Shown piece by piece: positions 17,809 through 32,015 of a stretch of DNA of 64,000 nucleotides. Each line of letters begins with the position of its first letter. The first letter of the stretch is position 1. Source of the stretch: Melioribacteraceae bacterium (GTDB lineage Bacteria; Bacteroidota; Ignavibacteria; Ignavibacteriales; Melioribacteraceae); contig JALSTB010000038.1 in NCBI GenBank assembly GCA_026983955.1, positions 1 to 64,000 of the forward strand. The letters run 5' to 3'. The translations under genes and the position numbers were made by a program. Below the pieces are notes generated by a model. It was not told the DNA's origin. It did no database searches and saw nothing but the letters and a program-made list of their open reading frames with translations.

Positions 17809-18060
17809 ATGTCCGTTACCAAAAATGAAAAAATGCACAATCCTCTTTCGGAATTAATCAGTGACGAGATTTTCGAAATGCTCCAGAGCAGAGGATTAAT
17901 AAACAAAAAATCCCTCCGCGATTATGAAATCAGAAAAAAATTCAAACAAATGCGAAATGCAAACATTAGCGCCGCAGAGGCAATTAACCGCTTGCGGGAC
18001 GAATATCCTTATCTTCAATTCGATACAATTAGAAAAATTGTTTATCACATTTATAAATAA
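17809..18060 (+). CDS. Small conserved-looking protein, unknown function
   Basis: 83 residues, strongly charged and helical, with no membrane segment. The second half (ISAAEAINRLRDEYPYLQFDTIRKIVYHIY) reads like a helix-turn-helix or winged-helix-like tail (ISAAEA ... DTIRKIV). This gives a weak impression of a nucleic-acid-binding protein. A strong AAAGGGGGC ribosome-binding site seven bases upstream makes it likely to be a real, well-translated gene. It is transcribed separately from the downstream promoter-terminator unit. No family name is offered. Confidence 0.65.
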   Translation: MSVTKNEKMHNPLSELISDEIFEMLQSRGLINKKSLRDYEIRKKFKQMRNANISAAEAINRLRDEYPYLQFDTIRKIVYHIYK

Positions 18061-18190: not shown

Positions 18191-18463
18191 ATGGCACAAG
18201 TTAAAAGAAGAATCCGTTCACAGAAAAAAGTATTAAAATCACCTTTCAAGGATTACTGGACAAAAGAAAATTATTACATCTTGGGTTTCGGTTTCATTCT
18301 ATTGATAATTGGAAACATTTTGCTTGCTCAAAGTCCTTATGAAAACCCGCTTTCCCTTTCCGTTGCACCTGTTGTTTTGTTACTCGCTTACCTTGTTGTA
18401 TTCCCGTTTGCAATTTTATATCGTAAAAATAACAACGACAACTCGGAAAATGTTTCTGGCTAA
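18191..18463 (+). CDS. DUF3098-like small membrane protein
   Basis: 90 residues: a basic N-terminus (KRRIRSQKKVLK), then two transmembrane helices (NYYILGFGFILLIIGNILLA and VAPVVLLLAYLVVFPFAILY) separated by a short polar loop, and a polar tail. This two-helix layout with a conserved KEN-YYILG-type opening resembles DUF3098 proteins of Bacteroidota. The function is unknown. Its 3' end overlaps the eutN start by 14 bases, so the two are probably translated from one message. Confidence 0.7.
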   Translation: MAQVKRRIRSQKKVLKSPFKDYWTKENYYILGFGFILLIIGNILLAQSPYENPLSLSVAPVVLLLAYLVVFPFAILYRKNNNDNSENVSG

Positions 18464-18725
18464 AATAACCGGCAATGTTGTTGCCACACAAAAAAACAAA
18501 TATTTGCAAGGACATAAACTTCTCCTTTTTCAACAAATCGATTTGAACGGAAACTTCATCGGGAAAGAGAATCAGATAGCACTTGATTTAACAGATGCCG
18601 GAATTGGCGATACCGTGCTGGTTGTAAAAGAAGGTGCCGCGGTGCAACAAATTTTAGGTCATAAAAACGCACCCGTGAACACAATGGTTGTTGCCGTGGT
18701 TGACGATATCGATATTCAAGAATAA
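18450..18725 (+). CDS. eutN: EutN/CcmL-type microcompartment vertex protein (BMC-P)
   Basis: 91 residues matching the EutN/CcmL family. The N-terminus MFLAKITGNVVATQKNKYLQG is the classic BMC-P opening. It is followed by LLLFQQIDLNG, a DxxGAGxGDxVLVV-type turn (LDLTDAGIGDTVLVVKEG) and a C-terminal VVAVVDDIDI strand. Pentamers of this family close the vertices of bacterial microcompartment shells. The ATG at 18450 is chosen because the family sequence starts exactly there; the frame stays open upstream. No hexameric BMC shell gene is in the window, so this is an orphan pentamer between DUF3098 and dprA. Two tagged enzymes at 22464 and 30429 may belong to the same compartment. Confidence 0.92.
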   Translation: MFLAKITGNVVATQKNKYLQGHKLLLFQQIDLNGNFIGKENQIALDLTDAGIGDTVLVVKEGAAVQQILGHKNAPVNTMVVAVVDDIDIQE

Positions 18726-22463: not shown

Positions 22464-23333
22464 TTAGAACTTAAATTCTTTAATTATTTTGTTAATTTCT
22501 TCGGTGTTAATTGTATTCCGCTGATTTTGTTCATTTGAAGTAAAACGGGATTTCACATCGAAAGGATTTACTTTGGGATTACCGGCTCTCGATTTTAATC
22601 TGTTTTCAATTATTTCGGTATATGTTCCGGATTCTGAAGCGCCGGTTATACTTTTTTCGTTCCGGTTTGTAACAGCGGATACGTTCAATTTGAATTTCGG
22701 TTTAATCCCGTAAGTTTTTTCCGCAATGTTCAACAACTTTACCACATTTTCCCGGGAAAGCGGATGTGCACCTCCCAAAATTTTCGCTACGAAAATTGTT
22801 TGTGCGGCATGTTCCAGTTTTTCCATTTTGTAATATGCATCTTCAATTGAAACACCAAGCGTAACAGCACCGTGGTTTTGGAGCAAAAACGCCCACGCAT
22901 AATTAATATACGGTTTCATGGAAGCAGGTAATTCATCGGTGGAGGGCGTGCCGTATTTACAAAGCGGGATTTCCCCAAGCGACAGAATCACTTCGGGGAA
23001 AACGGGTTCCGACAAATCTATACCGGCAGTTGCAAACGCTGTTGCATAAACAGGATGGCAGTGAACCACTGCATTTACTTCGGGTCTGGAATTGTAAGCT
23101 AGAAGATGAATTTTAGCTTCGGTGGAAACTTTACCGTTGCCATCGAGTTTACGACCGTAATTATCGATAGTAAGCAAATCTTCCGGCTTAACTTCCCCTT
23201 TGTTTTTTCCGGATGGAGTAATAAGTATCCTTTTGGAATCAAGCCTCAACGAAAGGTTTCCATCAGTAGCGGATACAAATCCTTTTTCATAAACTTTATG
23301 GCAAAATTTTACAAGCTCTAATCTTTTTTCCAC
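22464..23333 (-). CDS. Class II aldolase, fuculose-phosphate type, with C-terminal encapsulation-like tail
   Basis: 289 residues. The first 220 form a FucA/RhaD-type aldolase with Zn ligands H91, H93 (VHCHP) and H154 (QNHGAV) and catalytic E73 (STEAK), nearly the same numbering as E. coli FucA (E73, H92, H94, H155). It should cleave a 6-deoxyketose-1-phosphate to dihydroxyacetone phosphate and lactaldehyde. The extra C-terminus carries TEIIENRLKSRAGNP (239-253) and ends in INTEEINKIIKEFKF (275-289). Both blocks recur at the end of the aldehyde dehydrogenase at 30429. Such amphipathic tails are typical microcompartment-targeting peptides. It overlaps the upstream oxidoreductase gene by 16 bases. 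Confidence 0.9.
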   Translation of the reverse strand: MEKRLELVKFCHKVYEKGFVSATDGNLSLRLDSKRILITPSGKNKGEVKPEDLLTIDNYGRKLDGNGKVSTEAKIHLLAYNSRPEVNAVVHCHPVYATAFATAGIDLSEPVFPEVILSLGEIPLCKYGTPSTDELPASMKPYINYAWAFLLQNHGAVTLGVSIEDAYYKMEKLEHAAQTIFVAKILGGAHPLSRENVVKLLNIAEKTYGIKPKFKLNVSAVTNRNEKSITGASESGTYTEIIENRLKSRAGNPKVNPFDVKSRFTSNEQNQRNTINTEEINKIIKEFKF

Positions 23334-24334
23334 TGCCGTTCCAGTTCCTCCATAAATTTTATGTTAATGTAGCCGTCGTATCCGGTTACTTGAAGCGGTT
23401 GATTTTTGAAATACGATTTTTGAACGGAGCGGATTAAATACAACAACTTGTTCGCTCTTTTTCTGAAGATCTTTCTCGATTCGCCGTCGAGATCAATTAT
23501 TAGTTTCGCCGGAACATTTTTCTTCCCGACAAGGTTTTCGATACTGATTGAGCCTTTGTAACCGGTGATTTCAATTCTGTTAAAAGATTTTTTCGAACTG
23601 TACGAAACTTGAAATCCACCGTAACCGCCTTTTTCGAATTTTACCAGACCTGTTGCAAAATCTTCCACTTCGCTGGTGTAAATCACATTATCGAGGAAGC
23701 CGGTAATTTCACTAATCTCCCCGCCGAAAAATCTCAGTAAATCTATCATGTGTGTTCCCAAATCCCGCAGTGCGCCGCCGCCGCTCAGTTCTTTCTTAAA
23801 TCTGAAATTATCGTTCGGTGGAAAATCAATATTGAACTGGGTTGATATCGATAATATTTTACCAAGTAAATTGTTTTCAACCAAATCCTTGGCTTTAACA
23901 ATTAACGGATGAAACCGGTAAACATAATTAACGGTAAGAAAAACATTGTTGGCTTCACAAATATCAACCATTTCCTTCGCTTGACCGGAAGTTAAAGCCA
24001 ACGGTTTTTCACACAAAATGTTTTTTCCCGCCTTTGCCGCTTTAATTACCTGCTCATAGTGATGTGCATTTGCACTGGAAATGTAAAGAATTTCAAAATC
24101 GCTTTTCAAAAACTCATCATAGTCGGAATATGCCCCATCGGCCATAAATTTGGATGCAATAAAATCCGCACGTTCGGCTGAAGAGCTGTAAACCGAAACC
24201 AGATGGCTTCTTTTAACTTGTTGCAAAGTAGGTAAGAACGTGTTTTCCAGAAAATGTCCGCATCCGGCAACACCCCATCGCAGTCTTCTTAACCTTTTCG
24301 GAATTTTTATCTTTTTCTTTTCTTTTTTAATCAT
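23318..24334 (-). CDS. Gfo/Idh/MocA-family oxidoreductase
   Basis: 338 residues. After a very basic start (MIKKEKKKIKIPKRLRRL) comes the Rossmann motif WGVAGCGHFLENTF (about 20-33) and the family block LCEKPLALT (about 115-123). The C-terminal substrate domain includes GGALRDLGTHMIDLLRFFGG with its catalytic-type DxxxH. It would oxidise or reduce a sugar or polyol using NAD(P); the substrate is unknown. Its operon position directly before the fuculose-type aldolase suggests a role in deoxysugar metabolism, but housekeeping genes share the operon. Confidence 0.85.
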   Translation of the reverse strand: MIKKEKKKIKIPKRLRRLRWGVAGCGHFLENTFLPTLQQVKRSHLVSVYSSSAERADFIASKFMADGAYSDYDEFLKSDFEILYISSANAHHYEQVIKAAKAGKNILCEKPLALTSGQAKEMVDICEANNVFLTVNYVYRFHPLIVKAKDLVENNLLGKILSISTQFNIDFPPNDNFRFKKELSGGGALRDLGTHMIDLLRFFGGEISEITGFLDNVIYTSEVEDFATGLVKFEKGGYGGFQVSYSSKKSFNRIEITGYKGSISIENLVGKKNVPAKLIIDLDGESRKIFRKRANKLLYLIRSVQKSYFKNQPLQVTGYDGYINIKFMEELERQWKKD

Positions 24335-24340
24335 TGTAAG

Positions 24341-25294
24341 TTAAATATTTAATTTTTGCATTAATTTTTTAATGGGCAACGTATTTTGCATTACGTAAAA
24401 ATGGACTGCGGGAACATTTGCATTAATCAATTCTTCAACTTGCTTTAGAGCCCATTCCACACCGATATCCACAACGTGTTCGGGTTTTGCTTTGGCTACT
24501 TCCTCGGCCAGATCGCTAGGAATATCGACATGAAAATTTTTGGGAATCGAACTGAGTTGTTTTTGTGAAGTAATAAGTTTCAAACCCGGAATGATGGGAA
24601 CACCGATACCATGCTGCCTGCACAAATCGACGTAATTGAAATATCTTTCATTGTCGTAAAACATTTGTGTAACTATGTAATCTGCACCCGCATCAATTTT
24701 GGCTTTTGTATGACGGATATCCATTTCGATATTCGGAGCTTCGAAATGTTTTTCCGGATATCCTCCCACGCCGATACAAAAATCGGTTGGTTGTGCATCG
24801 AGCAATGTATCTTCCAGATATTTTCCCTTATTTAAATCAGAGACTTGCTTTACGAGATCGATTGCATATTCGTTCACACTTCTGTTGAATTTAACTGGCT
24901 TCTCGTATCCGCTTTCATCACCTCGAACAACAAGTACATTATCTATACCGAGATAATGTAATTCGATCAGAAAGTCTTCCGTTTCTTCCTTTGTAAAACC
25001 CTTGCATATTACATGCGGTACTGCATCAATATGGTATTTGTTTTGAACGAGGGCACAAATTCCCAATGTTCCGGGTCTTTTTCTTTTAACTTTAATTTTA
25101 TACCCGCCCCCGGGTAGTTCCTCGTATTCCACTTCCGCTGCGTGACTGGTTATATCAATAAACGGCGGGTTGTATTTCACCAAATCATCAAGAGCCGACA
25201 TCAATTGCTGAAAATTGCCGCCGCGTTTCGGCGGAATTATTTCAAAGCTAATTAACGTTTCGCTTGCTTTTTCCAGGTGTTCGGTAATTTTCAT
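24341..25294 (-). CDS. metF: Methylenetetrahydrofolate reductase
   Basis: 317 residues with the MTHFR TIM-barrel motifs: FEIIPPKRGG at the N-terminus, HVICKGFTKEETEDFLIELHYLGIDNVLVVRGDE in the middle, VGGYPEKH and GADYIVTQMFYDN, and a C-terminal VPAVHFYVMQN. It reduces 5,10-methylene-THF to 5-methyl-THF for methionine synthesis, using FAD. It is the first gene of the six-gene minus-strand operon, six bases before the oxidoreductase gene. The leader is only 63 bases to the next upstream gene and no SAM riboswitch is visible. Confidence 0.93.
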   Translation of the reverse strand: MKITEHLEKASETLISFEIIPPKRGGNFQQLMSALDDLVKYNPPFIDITSHAAEVEYEELPGGGYKIKVKRKRPGTLGICALVQNKYHIDAVPHVICKGFTKEETEDFLIELHYLGIDNVLVVRGDESGYEKPVKFNRSVNEYAIDLVKQVSDLNKGKYLEDTLLDAQPTDFCIGVGGYPEKHFEAPNIEMDIRHTKAKIDAGADYIVTQMFYDNERYFNYVDLCRQHGIGVPIIPGLKLITSQKQLSSIPKNFHVDIPSDLAEEVAKAKPEHVVDIGVEWALKQVEELINANVPAVHFYVMQNTLPIKKLMQKLNI

Positions 25295-25357
25295 CTTAAT
25301 TTCTTTTTGTTCATTCCAAATTTAACATATTTTAAGTAAACTTCCTTTGCCGCAGGT

Positions 25358-27778
25358 TTATTCCGGTTCAATCCGCAGCAAATCGTAGCCGGAAGACGTT
25401 ATGGTTTTAATATCCGTTTTAACTTTAATTAATTCACCATTCAACCATTTTTCCGTCATGTCTTTATAATGATCGCTGTAAAAATTTCCCGATTGACCGG
25501 TTGGCAAAATAAAATGAAATTCACCGGGTTTGGCAAAATCGTAGATGTAACGCATCGAAGGTCCTAAATTATTTGTGTACGGTTTGGTGAAAGAATACTC
25601 GGTGTTAAAGATTGTTGTTCCGTCTCCGCCAATCGGAAAGGGACCAATGTTTACAACTTTGGCAACCAGCGGTGAAGCTTTTTCAAACAAATGTTTAAAA
25701 ACCACTTGATGCAGCTTGCCCCATTGCCAATAGGTTATATCATCACCGAAACGTTTGCTAAGTTCTTGTATTGCTTCATTCAAACTTTTCTTTATTATAT
25801 CATCCCTAGTTTCAATTTCCGGCGTATTAACATCATCGAACCAGCCGGATTTGTTTTCTTCGAGCAAAACCGGAATGTTTCTGAATGGAACGTTTGCAAG
25901 GAAAACATATTCCATCATTAAATTTTTACCCATTTCGTCTTGGTAAATGTTCTTTATAAGATTTTGGAAAAATACGGCGTAAATTGTGGGGACTTGACTG
26001 TGTTCATCCATTACAAAATCCCAATTCCGGAATAGCTCGAGCGCCAATTTTATTTTTTCGTCCGTAACATTCGTATTTTCATAAGCTTGTAAAATATATT
26101 TCGTTATGTTTTTTGCATAGTGTGAAAAAAAATCGGTCTGGAATTTTCTGAAATCGTCAACATTAAATTTTTCTTTTGAACTCAACAGTTCCGTTATTCT
26201 CTCAATTCGCGACGGCGGTTCCCACACATTTGATATATGATATTTAAAATTTTTAACTGTTTTATTGTTTGCAGAAGCAATAAAGTTCTGTTTGGGATTA
26301 AACAACTTGGGCATCTCGCTATAGGGTACGAATCCGAGCCAATCGTATTTATCGGTAGTTCCGTCGAACACCAGTGTTGGACTGTAAAATTTACGTTTGG
26401 GTAACCTGGTTCCGCAAATATAACCGATATTGCCATCTTTATCGCCGTAAACGAAATTTTGTCCGGGCACTGCAAAATGTTTAACCCCTTTTTTAAATTC
26501 ATTCCAATTCATACTTCTGTTAATGAGATAAAAAGCATACATTTCATCACTGAACTCATAAGCCGTCCATCTAATGCTTAAATCCGCTTTACTTTGCTGT
26601 TCATTGGGAAACAGCTTGTTATATGTATGAATTCCGCTTATTATTGGACCGCGATGAGTTTTCCGAACGGTTAAAATTACGTCGGAAGAATCTTTTACCT
26701 TAATAGTATCGTTATGAATTTCGAGCGGTCGCCATTCGTTTTTGAAAAGATAATGTTGTTTGGAAGAATCCAATTTCTCAACATAAAAATCACAATCGTC
26801 CGTCATAACGTTGGTAAGAACCCACGATATGTTGCCGTTGTTACCAATTACCACTCCGGGAATGCCGGGCAAAGTAAATCCTTCAACATTAAAGTTGTTA
26901 CTTCTGATTACCGCCACCACCCACTTCCCGGGCGCTTGGAAAGCAAGGTGCGGATCGTTTGCTATCAGAACTTTTCCCGATTCCGATAATTTTCCGTTTA
27001 CAACCCAATTGTTCGAACCGATATGCGTACCTACGAACCCGGTGAATTTTCTGAATTCCTTATCGACTTGAATCAAATCGAGCGGAATTTCAGCAAATTT
27101 TTTTATTTCTTGCGGGATAATGGTTGGTGCATTTTCATCGTAAGACGGCATAATCTCCTGTGCTTTTTCCAGTCCTAATTTCTGAACCAAATGGGTAAAC
27201 GCCAAATCGCTCCACCAACTGATATTTAACTCCCAAGCCATTAATTTTACCAAAAGCAAACTATGTTCCGGTTGCCACGGTTCCGGATCATAACCCAACA
27301 CGTCGAATTCGATTTGATATTTCCCCTTTGCTTCTTTAATATAAGCGTTCACACCTCTTGCATAAGCTTCGAGCATTGCACGCGATTCCTTATGCAACTT
27401 TGGATAAAACCGTTTAACCGTTTGATACAAGCCGAGCGTCCGGAACATTTTATCGAAAGCAAGGGTTTTACTTCCCAACACTTCACTTAACCTGCCCAAT
27501 CCTGCGCGGCGTGTTATATCCATCTGGAACAGCCTTTCCTGTGCATGTACGTAACCCAAAGCGAAATATGCATCCATATCATCCTTGGCAACGATATATG
27601 CCACTGCATTTGAATCCCTGTAAATATTTACTCCGGAAGAAATACCCTTCGCCTTAACCTTTCCGTTGTATTGCGGCAAAGTTTGATTGAGCAAATAATA
27701 TGAGAGAAAAACAATAAAAACAATTAATGCAAAAATTACGGAGGCGGCTCCGATAAGTATTTTCAGCCACTTTTTCAT
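25358..27778 (-). CDS. Penicillin acylase-family (Ntn-hydrolase) protein
   Basis: 806 residues. An N-terminal membrane anchor (residues 7-31) is followed by the alpha part (FALGYVHAQERLFQMDITRR). The autocleavage site is G254-S255 (THIGSNNWVV), where Ser255 becomes the N-terminal nucleophile of the beta chain. Further family blocks are ANDPHL, LPGIPGVVIGNNGNISW and the C-terminal LPTGQSGNFYSDHYKDM. The enzyme cleaves amide bonds of small molecules, possibly acyl-homoserine lactones or modified amino acids, on the periplasmic side. It stands alone, divergent from rmuC with 157 bases between. Confidence 0.92.
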   Translation of the reverse strand: MKKWLKILIGAASVIFALIVFIVFLSYYLLNQTLPQYNGKVKAKGISSGVNIYRDSNAVAYIVAKDDMDAYFALGYVHAQERLFQMDITRRAGLGRLSEVLGSKTLAFDKMFRTLGLYQTVKRFYPKLHKESRAMLEAYARGVNAYIKEAKGKYQIEFDVLGYDPEPWQPEHSLLLVKLMAWELNISWWSDLAFTHLVQKLGLEKAQEIMPSYDENAPTIIPQEIKKFAEIPLDLIQVDKEFRKFTGFVGTHIGSNNWVVNGKLSESGKVLIANDPHLAFQAPGKWVVAVIRSNNFNVEGFTLPGIPGVVIGNNGNISWVLTNVMTDDCDFYVEKLDSSKQHYLFKNEWRPLEIHNDTIKVKDSSDVILTVRKTHRGPIISGIHTYNKLFPNEQQSKADLSIRWTAYEFSDEMYAFYLINRSMNWNEFKKGVKHFAVPGQNFVYGDKDGNIGYICGTRLPKRKFYSPTLVFDGTTDKYDWLGFVPYSEMPKLFNPKQNFIASANNKTVKNFKYHISNVWEPPSRIERITELLSSKEKFNVDDFRKFQTDFFSHYAKNITKYILQAYENTNVTDEKIKLALELFRNWDFVMDEHSQVPTIYAVFFQNLIKNIYQDEMGKNLMMEYVFLANVPFRNIPVLLEENKSGWFDDVNTPEIETRDDIIKKSLNEAIQELSKRFGDDITYWQWGKLHQVVFKHLFEKASPLVAKVVNIGPFPIGGDGTTIFNTEYSFTKPYTNNLGPSMRYIYDFAKPGEFHFILPTGQSGNFYSDHYKDMTEKWLNGELIKVKTDIKTITSSGYDLLRIEPE

Positions 27779-27935
27779 TTTTTACCGTTGTTAATGAATA
27801 AATGCGTATTACTTCCAAAAAACAATAAGAAATAAAAGTAGAAGTTTAGAAGTTGAAATGCAAGATTTTAAGTATACATAATTAATATCCGCATTTTAGT
27901 AGAATTGATTATATTTCGGAAAAGGACAGAATAAA

Positions 27936-29249
27936 ATGGAAATTCTAATTTTAAATATTGTAATTTTAATTTTTGTAATTATAAGCGTTGTCTTTTTATT
28001 CCTCATTTACCGGAAGCTGAATATATTCGGTCCTTCCCGGTTGTTTGAAGAACTCTCGGCAAAGCTTAACGGATATTACAAGCAAACCGATGAACAAATT
28101 GAAAATGAATTTCAGAAAAACCGTGAGGAGTATCAAAAAAATTCAAAGTTAACCAGAGAAGAAATCAGCGGATCGTTCAAAACCTTGGGCGATCAACTTT
28201 CCGACAGAATCAAGGAAATTGCCGGAAGACAAAAAGATCAACTTAATATAATTGAAAACCGGATGGAAAAATTAACCAAAACAAACGAAGAGAAATTCGA
28301 AAAATTGAAAGATCAGATATCTTTGCAGCTGACTGGCATTCAGGAAAGCAATGAGAAAAAGCTGGAAGAAATGAGGCGCACTGTTGACGAAAAACTGCAT
28401 GAAACATTGGAGAAAAGATTGGGAGAATCTTTCAAACAAGTAAGCGAACGGTTGGAACTGGTGCACAAAGGTTTGGGTGAAATGCAAAATTTGGCAAGCG
28501 GTGTGGGCGATTTGAAAAAAGTGCTTACAAACGTTAAAACACGCGGCACTTGGGGCGAGGTGCAATTGGGCAACTTAATAGAACAAATACTTGCACCAAA
28601 TCAATATGAGAAAAATGTTAAAACTAAAAAAGGCAGTTCCGAAATTGTGGAGTTTGCGGTTAAGTTACCCGGCAAAACAGGTAATGAGAACGAAACCGTT
28701 TGGCTACCGATAGATGCCAAATTCCCGTTGGAAGATTACCAACGGTTGCTTGCCGCACAAGAAGCGGCCGATCCGGTGCAAGTTGAAAAAGCGGCAAAGG
28801 AAATTGAGAAAAAAATAAGAGCCGAAGCAGCAAATATCGCGGCGAAATATTTAAATCCACCGGCCACAACCGATTTTGCAATCATGTTTTTGCCCGTCGA
28901 GGGATTGTATGCCGAAGTATTGAGAATACCCGGACTTGCAGAACGTATTCAACGTGAAAACAGAGTGATAATTACCGGACCGACCAACTTGGCTGCATTG
29001 TTAAACAGTTTGCAAATGGGCTTCCGTACTTTGGCAATCGAAAAACGCTCGAGCGAAGTTTGGAAATTACTGGGTGTGGTTAAAACGGAATTCCATAAAT
29101 TCGGAAACATACTGGAAAAAACAAAACAGAAAATCGATCAAGCAAGCAATACTTTGGGTGATGCTGCGCGGAAATCGAGAACAATAGAACGGAAATTGCG
29201 GGATGTGGAAGAATTACCGGAAGATAAAGAATTAAATCTTTTGGATTAA
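27936..29249 (+). CDS. rmuC: DNA recombination protein RmuC
   Basis: 437 residues: an N-terminal transmembrane helix (about 3-25), a long coiled coil (about 40-170) and the RmuC nuclease-like core with KTRGTWGEVQLGNLIEQIL, LPIDAKFPLEDYQRL, FAIMFLPVEGLYAEVL and TGPTNLAALLNSLQMGFRTL. RmuC limits recombination between short inverted repeats. A TATATTTC element at 27910-27917 could be a -7 box. It converges with the K+ channel gene, leaving 20 bases between stops. Confidence 0.93.
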   Translation: MEILILNIVILIFVIISVVFLFLIYRKLNIFGPSRLFEELSAKLNGYYKQTDEQIENEFQKNREEYQKNSKLTREEISGSFKTLGDQLSDRIKEIAGRQKDQLNIIENRMEKLTKTNEEKFEKLKDQISLQLTGIQESNEKKLEEMRRTVDEKLHETLEKRLGESFKQVSERLELVHKGLGEMQNLASGVGDLKKVLTNVKTRGTWGEVQLGNLIEQILAPNQYEKNVKTKKGSSEIVEFAVKLPGKTGNENETVWLPIDAKFPLEDYQRLLAAQEAADPVQVEKAAKEIEKKIRAEAANIAAKYLNPPATTDFAIMFLPVEGLYAEVLRIPGLAERIQRENRVIITGPTNLAALLNSLQMGFRTLAIEKRSSEVWKLLGVVKTEFHKFGNILEKTKQKIDQASNTLGDAARKSRTIERKLRDVEELPEDKELNLLD

Positions 29250-29269
29250 AATTTTTAATGTTATGTTTA

Positions 29270-30295
29270 TCAATTTTCCGTTGCAGCCAAATCGTCCATC
29301 TCACAAGATTCGGTTAATTTTGCCAAACTTTCGGATGGACCTATTGCTATCAATTTATCGTTTTCTTCTATTACCGTATTTGCACTTGGATTGTAAATTA
29401 ACTTACCGGTATTTTTAATTATTGCTACTATAATAATATTCCAATCCTTTCTCAAAGGTGAATCTTTCAGTGTTTTATTTACAAGTCTGGAATTCTTTGA
29501 AATGTTTACTTCTTCCAAACTGATTTCAACGTCCCGGCTTTTGGCGACACCGTCAATAAAATCAATTACTCCCGGTTTGAGCAACAAATTAACCATTCTG
29601 CTTCCGCCAAGTTCGATAGGTTTTACCACACGGTCTGCACCCGCTCTTTTTAATTTGGATTCGGTTCCCTCTTCGATTGCACGTGCCACTACAAAAATTT
29701 CCGGGTTAATTCCTTTGGCGGAAAGTACTGCAAACACATTTTGAGCATCGGTTGCAATAACTGCAACCAAGCCTTTTGCTTTTTTAATTCCCGCTTGCAA
29801 AAGTATATCATCGTGGGTTGCGTCTCCTTCAATAAACAAATATCCGATTTCAAGTAATTCTTCAATTTTTCTCGGATTGTTTTCTATCACCACGAAAGGC
29901 GTATTGTTATGTGCCAAATCCTCACAAATCACCTTTCCCATTCTACCGTAGCCGCAAATGATGTAGTGCCCGGTCAAACCGTCTATTTGTTTGTTCATTT
30001 TTCTCCTCCTGAAAAATTGCGTTTCCAAGAGCAATTGTACCGCCCTACCGCCGGTGTAAGCAATTGCCAGTACTCCGAAAATTATCAACATAATTGTGAG
30101 CACACGACCCGGAACGGTTAACGGACGCAGTTCCTTGAAGCCTGTTGTAGATATCGTAATTACTGTCATGTAAAAAGAATCGAATAAGCTCCATCCTTCA
30201 ACAACAGTATAACCAAGCGTTCCGAATAGAATTACACCGATGATAAGAGCAAATCCTGCCCTCAGATGGGATAAAGAAGCCTGAGTTTTATTCAT
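29270..30295 (-). CDS. Two-helix potassium channel with RCK (TrkA-N/TrkA-C) domains
   Basis: 341 residues. Two transmembrane helices (about 12-33 and 64-88) flank a pore loop with the filter-like STTGFKEL (49-56). A cytoplasmic RCK_N domain follows, with the nucleotide-binding YIICGYGRMGK (about 111-121), and then a RCK_C domain (about 255-335). The architecture is that of MthK/Kch-type channels gated by ligand. The filter differs from the usual TVGYGD: position 2 is Thr and GD is replaced by KE, as in a bacterial subgroup with VGF/VGFGE-like filters. Ion selectivity is therefore uncertain. Confidence 0.88.
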   Translation of the reverse strand: MNKTQASLSHLRAGFALIIGVILFGTLGYTVVEGWSLFDSFYMTVITISTTGFKELRPLTVPGRVLTIMLIIFGVLAIAYTGGRAVQLLLETQFFRRRKMNKQIDGLTGHYIICGYGRMGKVICEDLAHNNTPFVVIENNPRKIEELLEIGYLFIEGDATHDDILLQAGIKKAKGLVAVIATDAQNVFAVLSAKGINPEIFVVARAIEEGTESKLKRAGADRVVKPIELGGSRMVNLLLKPGVIDFIDGVAKSRDVEISLEEVNISKNSRLVNKTLKDSPLRKDWNIIIVAIIKNTGKLIYNPSANTVIEENDKLIAIGPSESLAKLTESCEMDDLAATEN

Positions 30296-30374
30296 TGTAA
30301 AAATTTTATTTTTTCACATAAAGTTAGTTTCTTTGCCGACCGATATCAACCTGGTTAGGGCGGTTATCATCAAA

Positions 30375-30406
30375 TTTGCGGTTTTTATTTGCTATTTTTA
30401 TATTGG
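30375..30406 (+). promoter_or_regulatory. Possible promoter of the aldehyde dehydrogenase gene
   Basis: TTTG (30375-30378), a 20-base spacer and TATATTGG (30399-30406) match the Bacteroidota -33/-7 pattern TTTG-N19-21-TAnnTTTG at all but one position. It lies 22 bases before the ATG at 30429, in the correct orientation. Confidence 0.4.
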
Positions 30407-30428
30407 AAATAAATTTTAAGAGGTGAAG

Positions 30429-32015
30429 ATGAACATTGACAAGGATATCCGTTCAATTCAGGAAATGCGGGATTTGGTAAAAACCGCTAAAGAAGCCCAA
30501 CTTGAATTTAAACATTATAATCAAAAACAAGTTGACGAGATAGTAAAAGCCATGGCCGAAGCAGGTTACCGCGAATCGGAAAGACTTGCTAAAATGGCAC
30601 ACGAAGAAACCGGATTCGGCAAGTGGGAAGATAAAGTAATAAAAAATCAATTCGGTACCAAATCGGTTTACGAATCGATAAAGGATTTGAAAACGGTTGG
30701 AGTGATAAACATCGAAAAAGGTGGCAAAGTTATTCAAATAGCCGAACCGATGGGAGTTGTTGCCGCATTGATTCCATCGACCAATCCCACTTCAACGGCA
30801 ATGTTCAAAGCGATAATTTCTTTGAAAAGCAGGAATGCTATTGTTGCAAGTCCGCACCCGAAAGCCGTAAATTGTACAATGGAAGCAATGAAAGTAATGG
30901 CTGATGCGGCGGAAAGGGCAGGAGCGCCGAAAGGTTTGGTTCAATGTATGTCTTTACCGACCTTGGAAGGCACACACGAATTAATGAAACATAAAGATGT
31001 GTCGGTAATATTGGCAACCGGCAGCACGCCGATGGTTAAAGCGGCATACAGCACTGGTACGCCCGCCTACGGTGTAGGCTCGGGTAACGTGCCGGCATTT
31101 ATTGAAAAAACTGCCGATTACAAAAAGGCTGTTGCGGATATTATCGCAGGTACCACTTTCGACAACGGCACTCTTTGCTCATCCGAACAATCGATGATTG
31201 TTGACCGTCCGATACTTGAAAAAGTAAAAGAAGAAGTGAGAAAAAACGGCGGATATTTTGTAACCCCGGAAGAAAAAGCCAAATTGGAAAAGGCGATTCA
31301 GAAAAACGGGCGGATTAACCCGGAAATTGTCGGCAAACCCGCAACGTTCATTGCTGAATATGCAGGATTCGAAGTACCACCCGATACAAAAGTACTACTT
31401 GCCGAATGCACTAAAGTCGGGAAAGACGAACCTTTCTCGATGGAAAAACTCTCCCCCACTCTCGCATTTTATGTTGTTGACGGCTGGCTGGAAGGATGCC
31501 ATAAATGTATCGACCTGTTGAGGTTCGGAGGAATCGGGCACACGATGGTGATACACTCGAATGACAAGGAAATCATTATGAAATTTGCAATGGAGAAACC
31601 GGCATTCAGAATTATAGTAAACTCCGTGGCATCGTTGGGAGCCGTAGGTTATACAACCGATTTGGATCCTTCACTCACGTTAGGAGTCGGTACATGGGGC
31701 GGTTCGATAATTTCCCAAAATGTAACCGCAAAGCATTTGTTGAACATAAAAACCGTAGCGTTCGAAACTCGTCCGTTAAACAAAGGCGAAAGTGTTAATT
31801 CTTTCGACGGTGTGGCAATCGGTGCAACGGATTATTCACGTACCGGAAGTTTTACGGAAATAATTGAAGAACGGTTAAGGGCGCGGGCTGGAAATCCGGC
31901 CGTTCCACCTGAAATCACAACTTCGAATGTTGGAACTGGCACTGCTCAAAACAAGCTAGGCAAAAATATTACTCCTGCGGAAGTTGAAAAAATAATAAGA
32001 GAATTTAAATTATAA
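30429..32015 (+). CDS. CoA-acylating-type aldehyde dehydrogenase with C-terminal encapsulation-like tail
   Basis: 528 residues of the PduP/EutE/AdhE-N type. Catalytic C250 lies in FDNGTLCSSEQ, with the family's LIPSTNPTSTAMFKAI and ATGSTPMVKAAY blocks. It would convert an aldehyde plus CoA and NAD+ to acyl-CoA. The C-terminus carries TEIIEERLRARAGNP (476-490) and ends with ITPAEVEKIIREFKL (514-528). Both blocks are shared with the otherwise unrelated aldolase at 22464. This indicates targeting to a common microcompartment. The ATG at 30429 is preferred over the GTG at 30423, which lies inside the AGAGGTG ribosome-binding site. It is a single-gene unit. Confidence 0.92.
   Translation: MNIDKDIRSIQEMRDLVKTAKEAQLEFKHYNQKQVDEIVKAMAEAGYRESERLAKMAHEETGFGKWEDKVIKNQFGTKSVYESIKDLKTVGVINIEKGGKVIQIAEPMGVVAALIPSTNPTSTAMFKAIISLKSRNAIVASPHPKAVNCTMEAMKVMADAAERAGAPKGLVQCMSLPTLEGTHELMKHKDVSVILATGSTPMVKAAYSTGTPAYGVGSGNVPAFIEKTADYKKAVADIIAGTTFDNGTLCSSEQSMIVDRPILEKVKEEVRKNGGYFVTPEEKAKLEKAIQKNGRINPEIVGKPATFIAEYAGFEVPPDTKVLLAECTKVGKDEPFSMEKLSPTLAFYVVDGWLEGCHKCIDLLRFGGIGHTMVIHSNDKEIIMKFAMEKPAFRIIVNSVASLGAVGYTTDLDPSLTLGVGTWGGSIISQNVTAKHLLNIKTVAFETRPLNKGESVNSFDGVAIGATDYSRTGSFTEIIEERLRARAGNPAVPPEITTSNVGTGTAQNKLGKNITPAEVEKIIREFKL

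Follow-up and report, generated by a model that had tools for sequence, protein, structure and literature searches.

A two-block C-terminal tail common to a class II aldolase and an aldehyde dehydrogenase in a Melioribacteraceae bacterium with dispersed microcompartment genes

Why should two unrelated enzymes end in the same peptide? The question is raised by a stretch of 64,000 nucleotides from a Melioribacteraceae bacterium (order Ignavibacteriales, phylum Bacteroidota; positions 1 to 64,000 of contig JALSTB010000038.1, assembly GCA_026983955.1), the whole of which is called the window below. A class II (FucA-type) aldolase is encoded on the minus strand at 22464..23333 (PF00596, 1.8e-47; catalytic core approximately residues 1–212), and an acylating (acetylating) aldehyde dehydrogenase on the plus strand at 30423..32015 (TIGR02518). 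The open reading frame (ORF) of the dehydrogenase opens with GTG at 30423; an in-frame ATG at 30429 is the start used in the initial annotation, which had pointed out the common tail. In the aldolase, block 1 of the tail (TEIIENRLKSRAGNP, residues 239–253) is located at 22575..22619 and block 2 (INTEEINKIIKEFKF, residues 275–289) at 22467..22511, both on the minus strand. In the dehydrogenase, block 1 (TEIIEERLRARAGNP, residues 478–492) is located at 31854..31898 and block 2 (ITPAEVEKIIREFKL, residues 516–530) at 31968..32012, both on the plus strand. We consider it likely that the tail targets both enzymes to the shell of one bacterial microcompartment (BMC), that it is ancestral on the dehydrogenase, and that it was passed on to the aldolase.

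The comparison of the two tails showed that they are homologous. The C-terminal regions of the aldolase and dehydrogenase gave a local alignment score of 117, versus 27 ± 5 (maximum 50) in 5,000 shuffles (Gumbel p ~3e-11), and the catalytic parts of the two enzymes scored just 35. A tail profile of 56 positions was built from 20 dehydrogenase tails and no aldolases. This profile matched the tail of the window aldolase with E = 9e-14 over positions 2–55, and the four aldolases of the genus were matched with E values of 2e-12 to 7e-15. The match spans both blocks in order as well as the start of the linker (NP.VNPF), which is also present in several dehydrogenases. Chance similarity was ruled out by the shuffles and by the profile built without aldolases. 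An assembly artefact is ruled out as well, since the assemblies of four separate species contain the tailed aldolase.

The tail was predicted to contain two short helices. The AlphaFold2 model of the aldolase has a high-confidence class II core, followed by poorly ordered linkers and helices at residues 238–250 and 277–287. The tail helices of the dehydrogenase are predicted at residues 477–488 and 518–529, with disordered linkers. The predicted helices and the alignments of both enzymes bear out the initial annotation in its claim of two conserved helical islands rather than one helix. Encapsulation peptides consist of a terminal amphipathic helix attached by a linker of low conservation, and natural ones are described as a single binding domain (PMC12339742). 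Block 2 looks like such a peptide in both enzymes. It is modelled as a short terminal amphipathic helix with a hydrophobic moment of 0.46–0.54, behind a linker of 0.18 identity, and it resembles in this the encapsulation peptides of PduP, PduD, PduL, and CcmN. The difference from these is a second, better conserved helical block upstream, and both blocks move together. Because it has two conserved helical blocks instead of one, the tail is a variant and not a plain encapsulation peptide.

Block 1 has the consensus F..QIEERLRARAGNP and a hydrophobic moment of 0.14–0.20, far below that of block 2. I481, A489, G490, and N491 of the dehydrogenase block show no variation among 32 dehydrogenases aligned from the phylum. 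The low moment and the invariant A, G, and N make a specific contact of block 1 more probable than packing of a generic amphipathic kind. The BMC-H protein of the genome has the sequence AATDAGAAAA at residues 56–65, and the corresponding helix of PduA forms the encapsulation-peptide groove (PMC11157265). Synthetic tandem encapsulation peptides partition cargo more strongly as the number of repeats increases (PMC12339742). By analogy, the two-block tail could act like such a tandem.

The distribution of the tail was determined in an order-level sample of 164 genomes and an even phylum-level sample of 395 genomes. The dehydrogenase was found in 111 genomes of the order and BMC proteins in 151. 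Three dehydrogenase-bearing genomes (G007, G069, and G095), 66–89% complete, had no BMC match. Near-full-length matches to the tail profile in the order were dehydrogenases and four aldolases, the latter in the window genus only, where all four species have the tailed enzyme. The initial annotation was right about the ORFs and the tails of this pair, but its picture of one tail on both enzymes holds for this genus only, and elsewhere in the order the dehydrogenase alone has the tail. In the phylum, 64 genomes matched the profile, all through dehydrogenase-sized frames with the window aldolase as the sole exception, and both blocks were present at the C-termini of seven dehydrogenases read from outside the order. 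Searching the window genome with the profile revealed no protein with this tail besides the aldolase and the dehydrogenase. The nearest named record with a tailed aldolase is the Melioribacteraceae metagenome-assembled genome (MAG) JALVFE010000025.1.

The tail is closely associated with shell genes. Outside the order, BMC proteins were found in 28 of 29 tail-bearing genomes vs 1 of 15 tail-less genomes (Fisher p 2e-9), and the lone tail-bearing genome without them is 81% complete. Homologues with the tail occur almost exclusively in genomes that also have shell genes, as the organelle function proposed in the initial annotation implied, and the four exceptions are incomplete MAGs. Judging from the sequences, the dehydrogenase acquired its two-block tail long ago and carries it across the phylum.

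The aldolase appears to have gained the tail much more locally. The gene order MetF, Gfo/Idh, aldolase, and Ddl, with the dehydrogenase several kb off, recurs in genera g23 and g28 as well as a third family, where the syntenic aldolases are tail-less and end at 220–222 residues. Among named GTDB genomes, the aldolase of L160 is tailed, and more than 12 orthologues from Ignavibacteria/Melioribacteraceae are tail-less. In a maximum-likelihood tree of the aldolase cores, the tailed enzymes form one clade (91/95; 1 change) amid tail-less ones. A single gain of the tail by the aldolase is the simplest reading. An ancestral tail lost in all other aldolases is unlikely, as every other branch of the clade sampled, two further families among them, carries tail-less aldolases. 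Mean pairwise identity along the aldolase is 0.71 in the core, 0.20 in the first linker, 0.80 in block 1, 0.18 in the second linker, and 0.60 in block 2. The blocks of the aldolase were conserved after the gain while the linkers drifted. The comparisons thus point to a tail that was ancestrally present on the dehydrogenase and is a new acquisition of the aldolase, a point that the initial annotation had missed, and to a dehydrogenase-type tail as the donor.

We lean towards a "tail capture", in which a cytosolic aldolase encoded nearby took over, as one unit, the two-part targeting signal of the core dehydrogenase of a scattered microcompartment. The event would be confined to one genus and would have provided the organelle with a new signature enzyme. 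The signal would be bipartite, and its conserved IEERLRARAGNP helix would be distinct from known encapsulation peptides. A literature search on shared or transferred encapsulation peptides found no matching case among the papers covered.

The shell genes of the window genome are at four scattered places (contigs C35, C132, C142, and C38, the last being that of the window). C35 has a BMC-H gene and an extended BMC-H gene, C142 has two adjacent BMC-P genes, and the window has the third BMC-P gene, encoding an EutN/CcmL-type vertex protein (18450..18725, plus strand). The genome has exactly three matches to PF03319 (BMC-P), and no stretch of it holds BMC-H together with BMC-P. The BMC-T gene (L012:335-2214, contig C132) adjoins a gene for a PduS/RnfC-like iron-sulphur flavoprotein, a pairing that suggests electron transfer across the shell. 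The initial annotation had seen only the BMC-P gene of the window and proposed a dispersed microcompartment and a genome search for BMC-H and BMC-T; both are present, together with three BMC-P genes. The two tests named there as able to refute the reading, on BMC-H in the genome and on the same blocks in shell-less genomes, both left it standing. Given shell genes at several separate places, a dispersed microcompartment very probably exists, and the tail follows the shell genes from genome to genome. The extended BMC-H (L011:12793-13389) has a C-terminal extension of approximately 110 residues with a short basic end (MNVHQLRKLARSFENFPIHGRQISKANRQKLLDYFNSLR) and no significant Pfam match.

FRAG microcompartments are reported from Ignavibacteriae and other phyla, with no obvious signature enzyme (Sutter et al. 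2021, PMC8217296). The shell set studied here resembles FRAG as judged by the published description (dispersal and BMC-P triplet), not by shell-protein trees. As in the FRAG loci described there (PMC8217296), the shell genes are split, there are three BMC-P genes, and the dehydrogenase is apart from most shell genes. The difference here is a class II aldolase with the tail of the dehydrogenase as candidate cargo and signature enzyme. In PVM and ACI organelles, a class II aldolase is the signature enzyme or carries a C-terminal signal (PMC8217296). PVM and PVM-like (fucose/rhamnose) organelles likewise combine a class II aldolase with an aldehyde dehydrogenase, whereas the system of the window has no compact locus, no PduL, and no fucose isomerase or RhaA, and its two enzymes have a two-block tail in common. 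ACI of Acidobacteria is similar in having a PF00596 aldolase with a C-terminal encapsulation peptide and a dehydrogenase on a satellite locus. It belongs to another phylum, and a dehydrogenase-type two-block tail of the aldolase is not mentioned in the passage on it (PMC8217296).

We propose that the tail would be a two-helix signal that brings enzymes into a FRAG-like microcompartment whose genes are scattered in the genome. Block 2, at the extreme C-terminus, would act as an ordinary encapsulation peptide and pack against the inter-hexamer grooves of BMC-H. A further conserved helix, block 1, would be carried by a flexible linker and probably serve as an additional "sticker" through which cargo contacts cargo or the shell. 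Both blocks together would have been joined, in the lineage of the window genus, to a class II aldolase encoded 7–11 kb from the dehydrogenase. One shell would then hold both the aldehyde-making aldolase and the aldehyde-oxidising dehydrogenase, and the former may supply the latter with its aldehyde. The common tail thus names a candidate aldehyde-making enzyme for FRAG without the need of gene clustering. With four orthologues tailed and many others tail-less in a conserved gene order, the genus and its relatives offer a natural experiment on enzyme recruitment into a protein organelle. Should block 1 turn out to be another binding element, the tail would amount to a naturally bivalent targeting signal, of use in loading engineered shells.

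Several observations weigh against this proposal. The pLDDT of the tail helices was mostly ~42–76 by ten-residue block, and the alignments behind the models were shallow. The closest dehydrogenase chains in the PDB align only to residue 447–454, so block 1 is uncovered. The aldolase gene has no adjoining shell gene, and PduL-type phosphotransacylase (PF06130), which is usual in metabolosomes, was absent from the genome. All four genomes of the genus are fragmented assemblies. When the aldolase tails were compared with 29 dehydrogenase tails, those of their own genomes were not the closest and ranked 2–17 of 29. The transfer therefore probably happened long ago within the genus, or else its details are no longer readable. 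Recent gene conversion from the dehydrogenase of the same genome is unsupported, as the own-genome tails are not the best matches.

The same evidence can be read in other ways. Block 2 alone may be the organelle signal, and block 1 a docking or oligomerisation motif that ties the enzymes together or to a scaffold, the pair travelling as a complex. Block 1 is better conserved than both block 2 and the aldolase core, and its invariant A, G, and N and low moment (0.14–0.20) are not what a generic amphipathic helix needs. However, many genomes have block 1 on the dehydrogenase only, where no partner with the same motif is needed, and no scaffold was identified; we hold this as a serious but tentative possibility. 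A function of the tail unrelated to the organelle, such as a cytosolic two-enzyme complex or regulation, would agree with the position of the aldolase gene away from any shell gene. The very close association of the tail with shell genes and the likeness of block 2 to known encapsulation peptides (PMC12339742) make such a function very unlikely. Both enzymes may also have evolved similar peptides independently to fit the same shell, as the BMC-H-linked aldolase family of the order described below evolved a different signal. Encapsulation peptides are simple and arise readily. An ordered match of two blocks and a linker start at the E values given above is nevertheless implausible as the product of independent evolution, and we regard convergence as extremely improbable.

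The aldehyde handled by the two enzymes was considered from the catalytic domains and the gene content. The dehydrogenase passed TIGR02518 (acetylating acetaldehyde dehydrogenase) with 642.2 bits against a cut-off of 620.1. In the aldolase, E72, H91, H93, and H154 are invariant in the alignment, which conserves the zinc ligands and the catalytic glutamate. The aldolase passed no specific model and failed the FucA equivalog cut-offs (107.8 vs 264 for NF005302 and 75.1 vs 400 for TIGR01086). Fucose isomerase (PF07881) was absent from all four genomes of the genus, other isomerase families not having been searched, and rhamnose isomerase RhaA (PF06134) was absent from three of the four species, including that of the window. 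The initial annotation had spoken of a "lactaldehyde-type" microcompartment. With an acetylating acetaldehyde type of dehydrogenase, this label found no support; it is unproven because fucose isomerase, RhaA, and PduL are absent and the aldolase passes no specific model. The safe statement is that the aldolase would yield dihydroxyacetone phosphate (DHAP) and a short aldehyde, most probably acetaldehyde or some other short one.

A PVM-type organelle for fucose/rhamnose (lactaldehyde) would agree with the FucA-type fold of the aldolase (TMt ~0.9 to FucA structures), its conserved zinc ligands and catalytic glutamate, and the RhaA encoded by one species of the genus (G088). PVM organelles are described as using a class II aldolase (PMC8217296, PMC4207490). 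The missing isomerases (within the families searched) and PduL, the acetaldehyde model passed by the dehydrogenase, and the lack of a BMC-H and BMC-P locus here, when PVM-like loci occur elsewhere in the order as separate clusters, make this organelle unlikely. The alternative that the aldolase cleaves 5-deoxyribulose-1-phosphate into acetaldehyde and DHAP, as in a DrdA-like salvage of 5′-deoxyadenosine with the acetaldehyde contained by the shell, is somewhat less doubtful. The best Foldseek matches of the aldolase were YgbL and the Bacillus thuringiensis aldolase 6btg and 6btd, which we take to be a member of the 5-deoxyribose pathway, and the dehydrogenase scores as an acetylating acetaldehyde dehydrogenase. 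The E values of FucA structures, however, were close behind. The 5-deoxyribose pathway has been described (PMC6079011).

In six genomes from genera g8 and g16 (G099, G104, G105, G106, G109, and G118; cf. L074-L078), a BMC-H gene has the gene of another class II aldolase as its immediate neighbour. In the five of these six genomes that were read, the latter aldolase ends in an unrelated single helix, such as IPIKELIKKITDEVLGQIRK. The window genus has one aldolase match per genome. The tailed aldolase and this BMC-H-linked aldolase indicate that class II aldolases were apparently given organelle signals at least twice in the order. A PVM-like locus, of a kind reported for Melioribacter roseus (PMC4207490), was found at L079:646-8867. 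It has three BMC-P genes, BMC-H genes, a short dehydrogenase, an aldolase with a C-terminal helix, acetate kinase, and LUD proteins. The same genome also has the tailed dehydrogenase, and possibly there are two organelles in one cell.

Among the neighbours of the aldolase gene, a Gfo/Idh/MocA oxidoreductase gene (23318..24334, minus strand) overlaps its start, and a MetF-like gene, named from sequence and not by family search, lies upstream of both (24341..25294, minus strand). These conserved neighbours establish the synteny, and no organelle role is implied for the oxidoreductase. A small ORF of 83 residues (window 17809-18060) upstream of the BMC-P gene had only a weak Pfam match (Imm3, sub-cut-off). 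Directly upstream of the BMC-P pair on the other contig (L013:6001-9819) are DNA methyltransferase, restriction-like, and PIN-domain-like genes, named from sequence only. In another genome, a DUF4160/DUF2442 pair stands directly behind the stop codon of the dehydrogenase (L148:4277-4941; G071:C237) and is followed by a second copy (55/66 bases) of the dehydrogenase 3′-end, including block 2. The arrangement resembles the outcome of a mobile cassette inserting at the 3′-end of the dehydrogenase gene and restoring that end.

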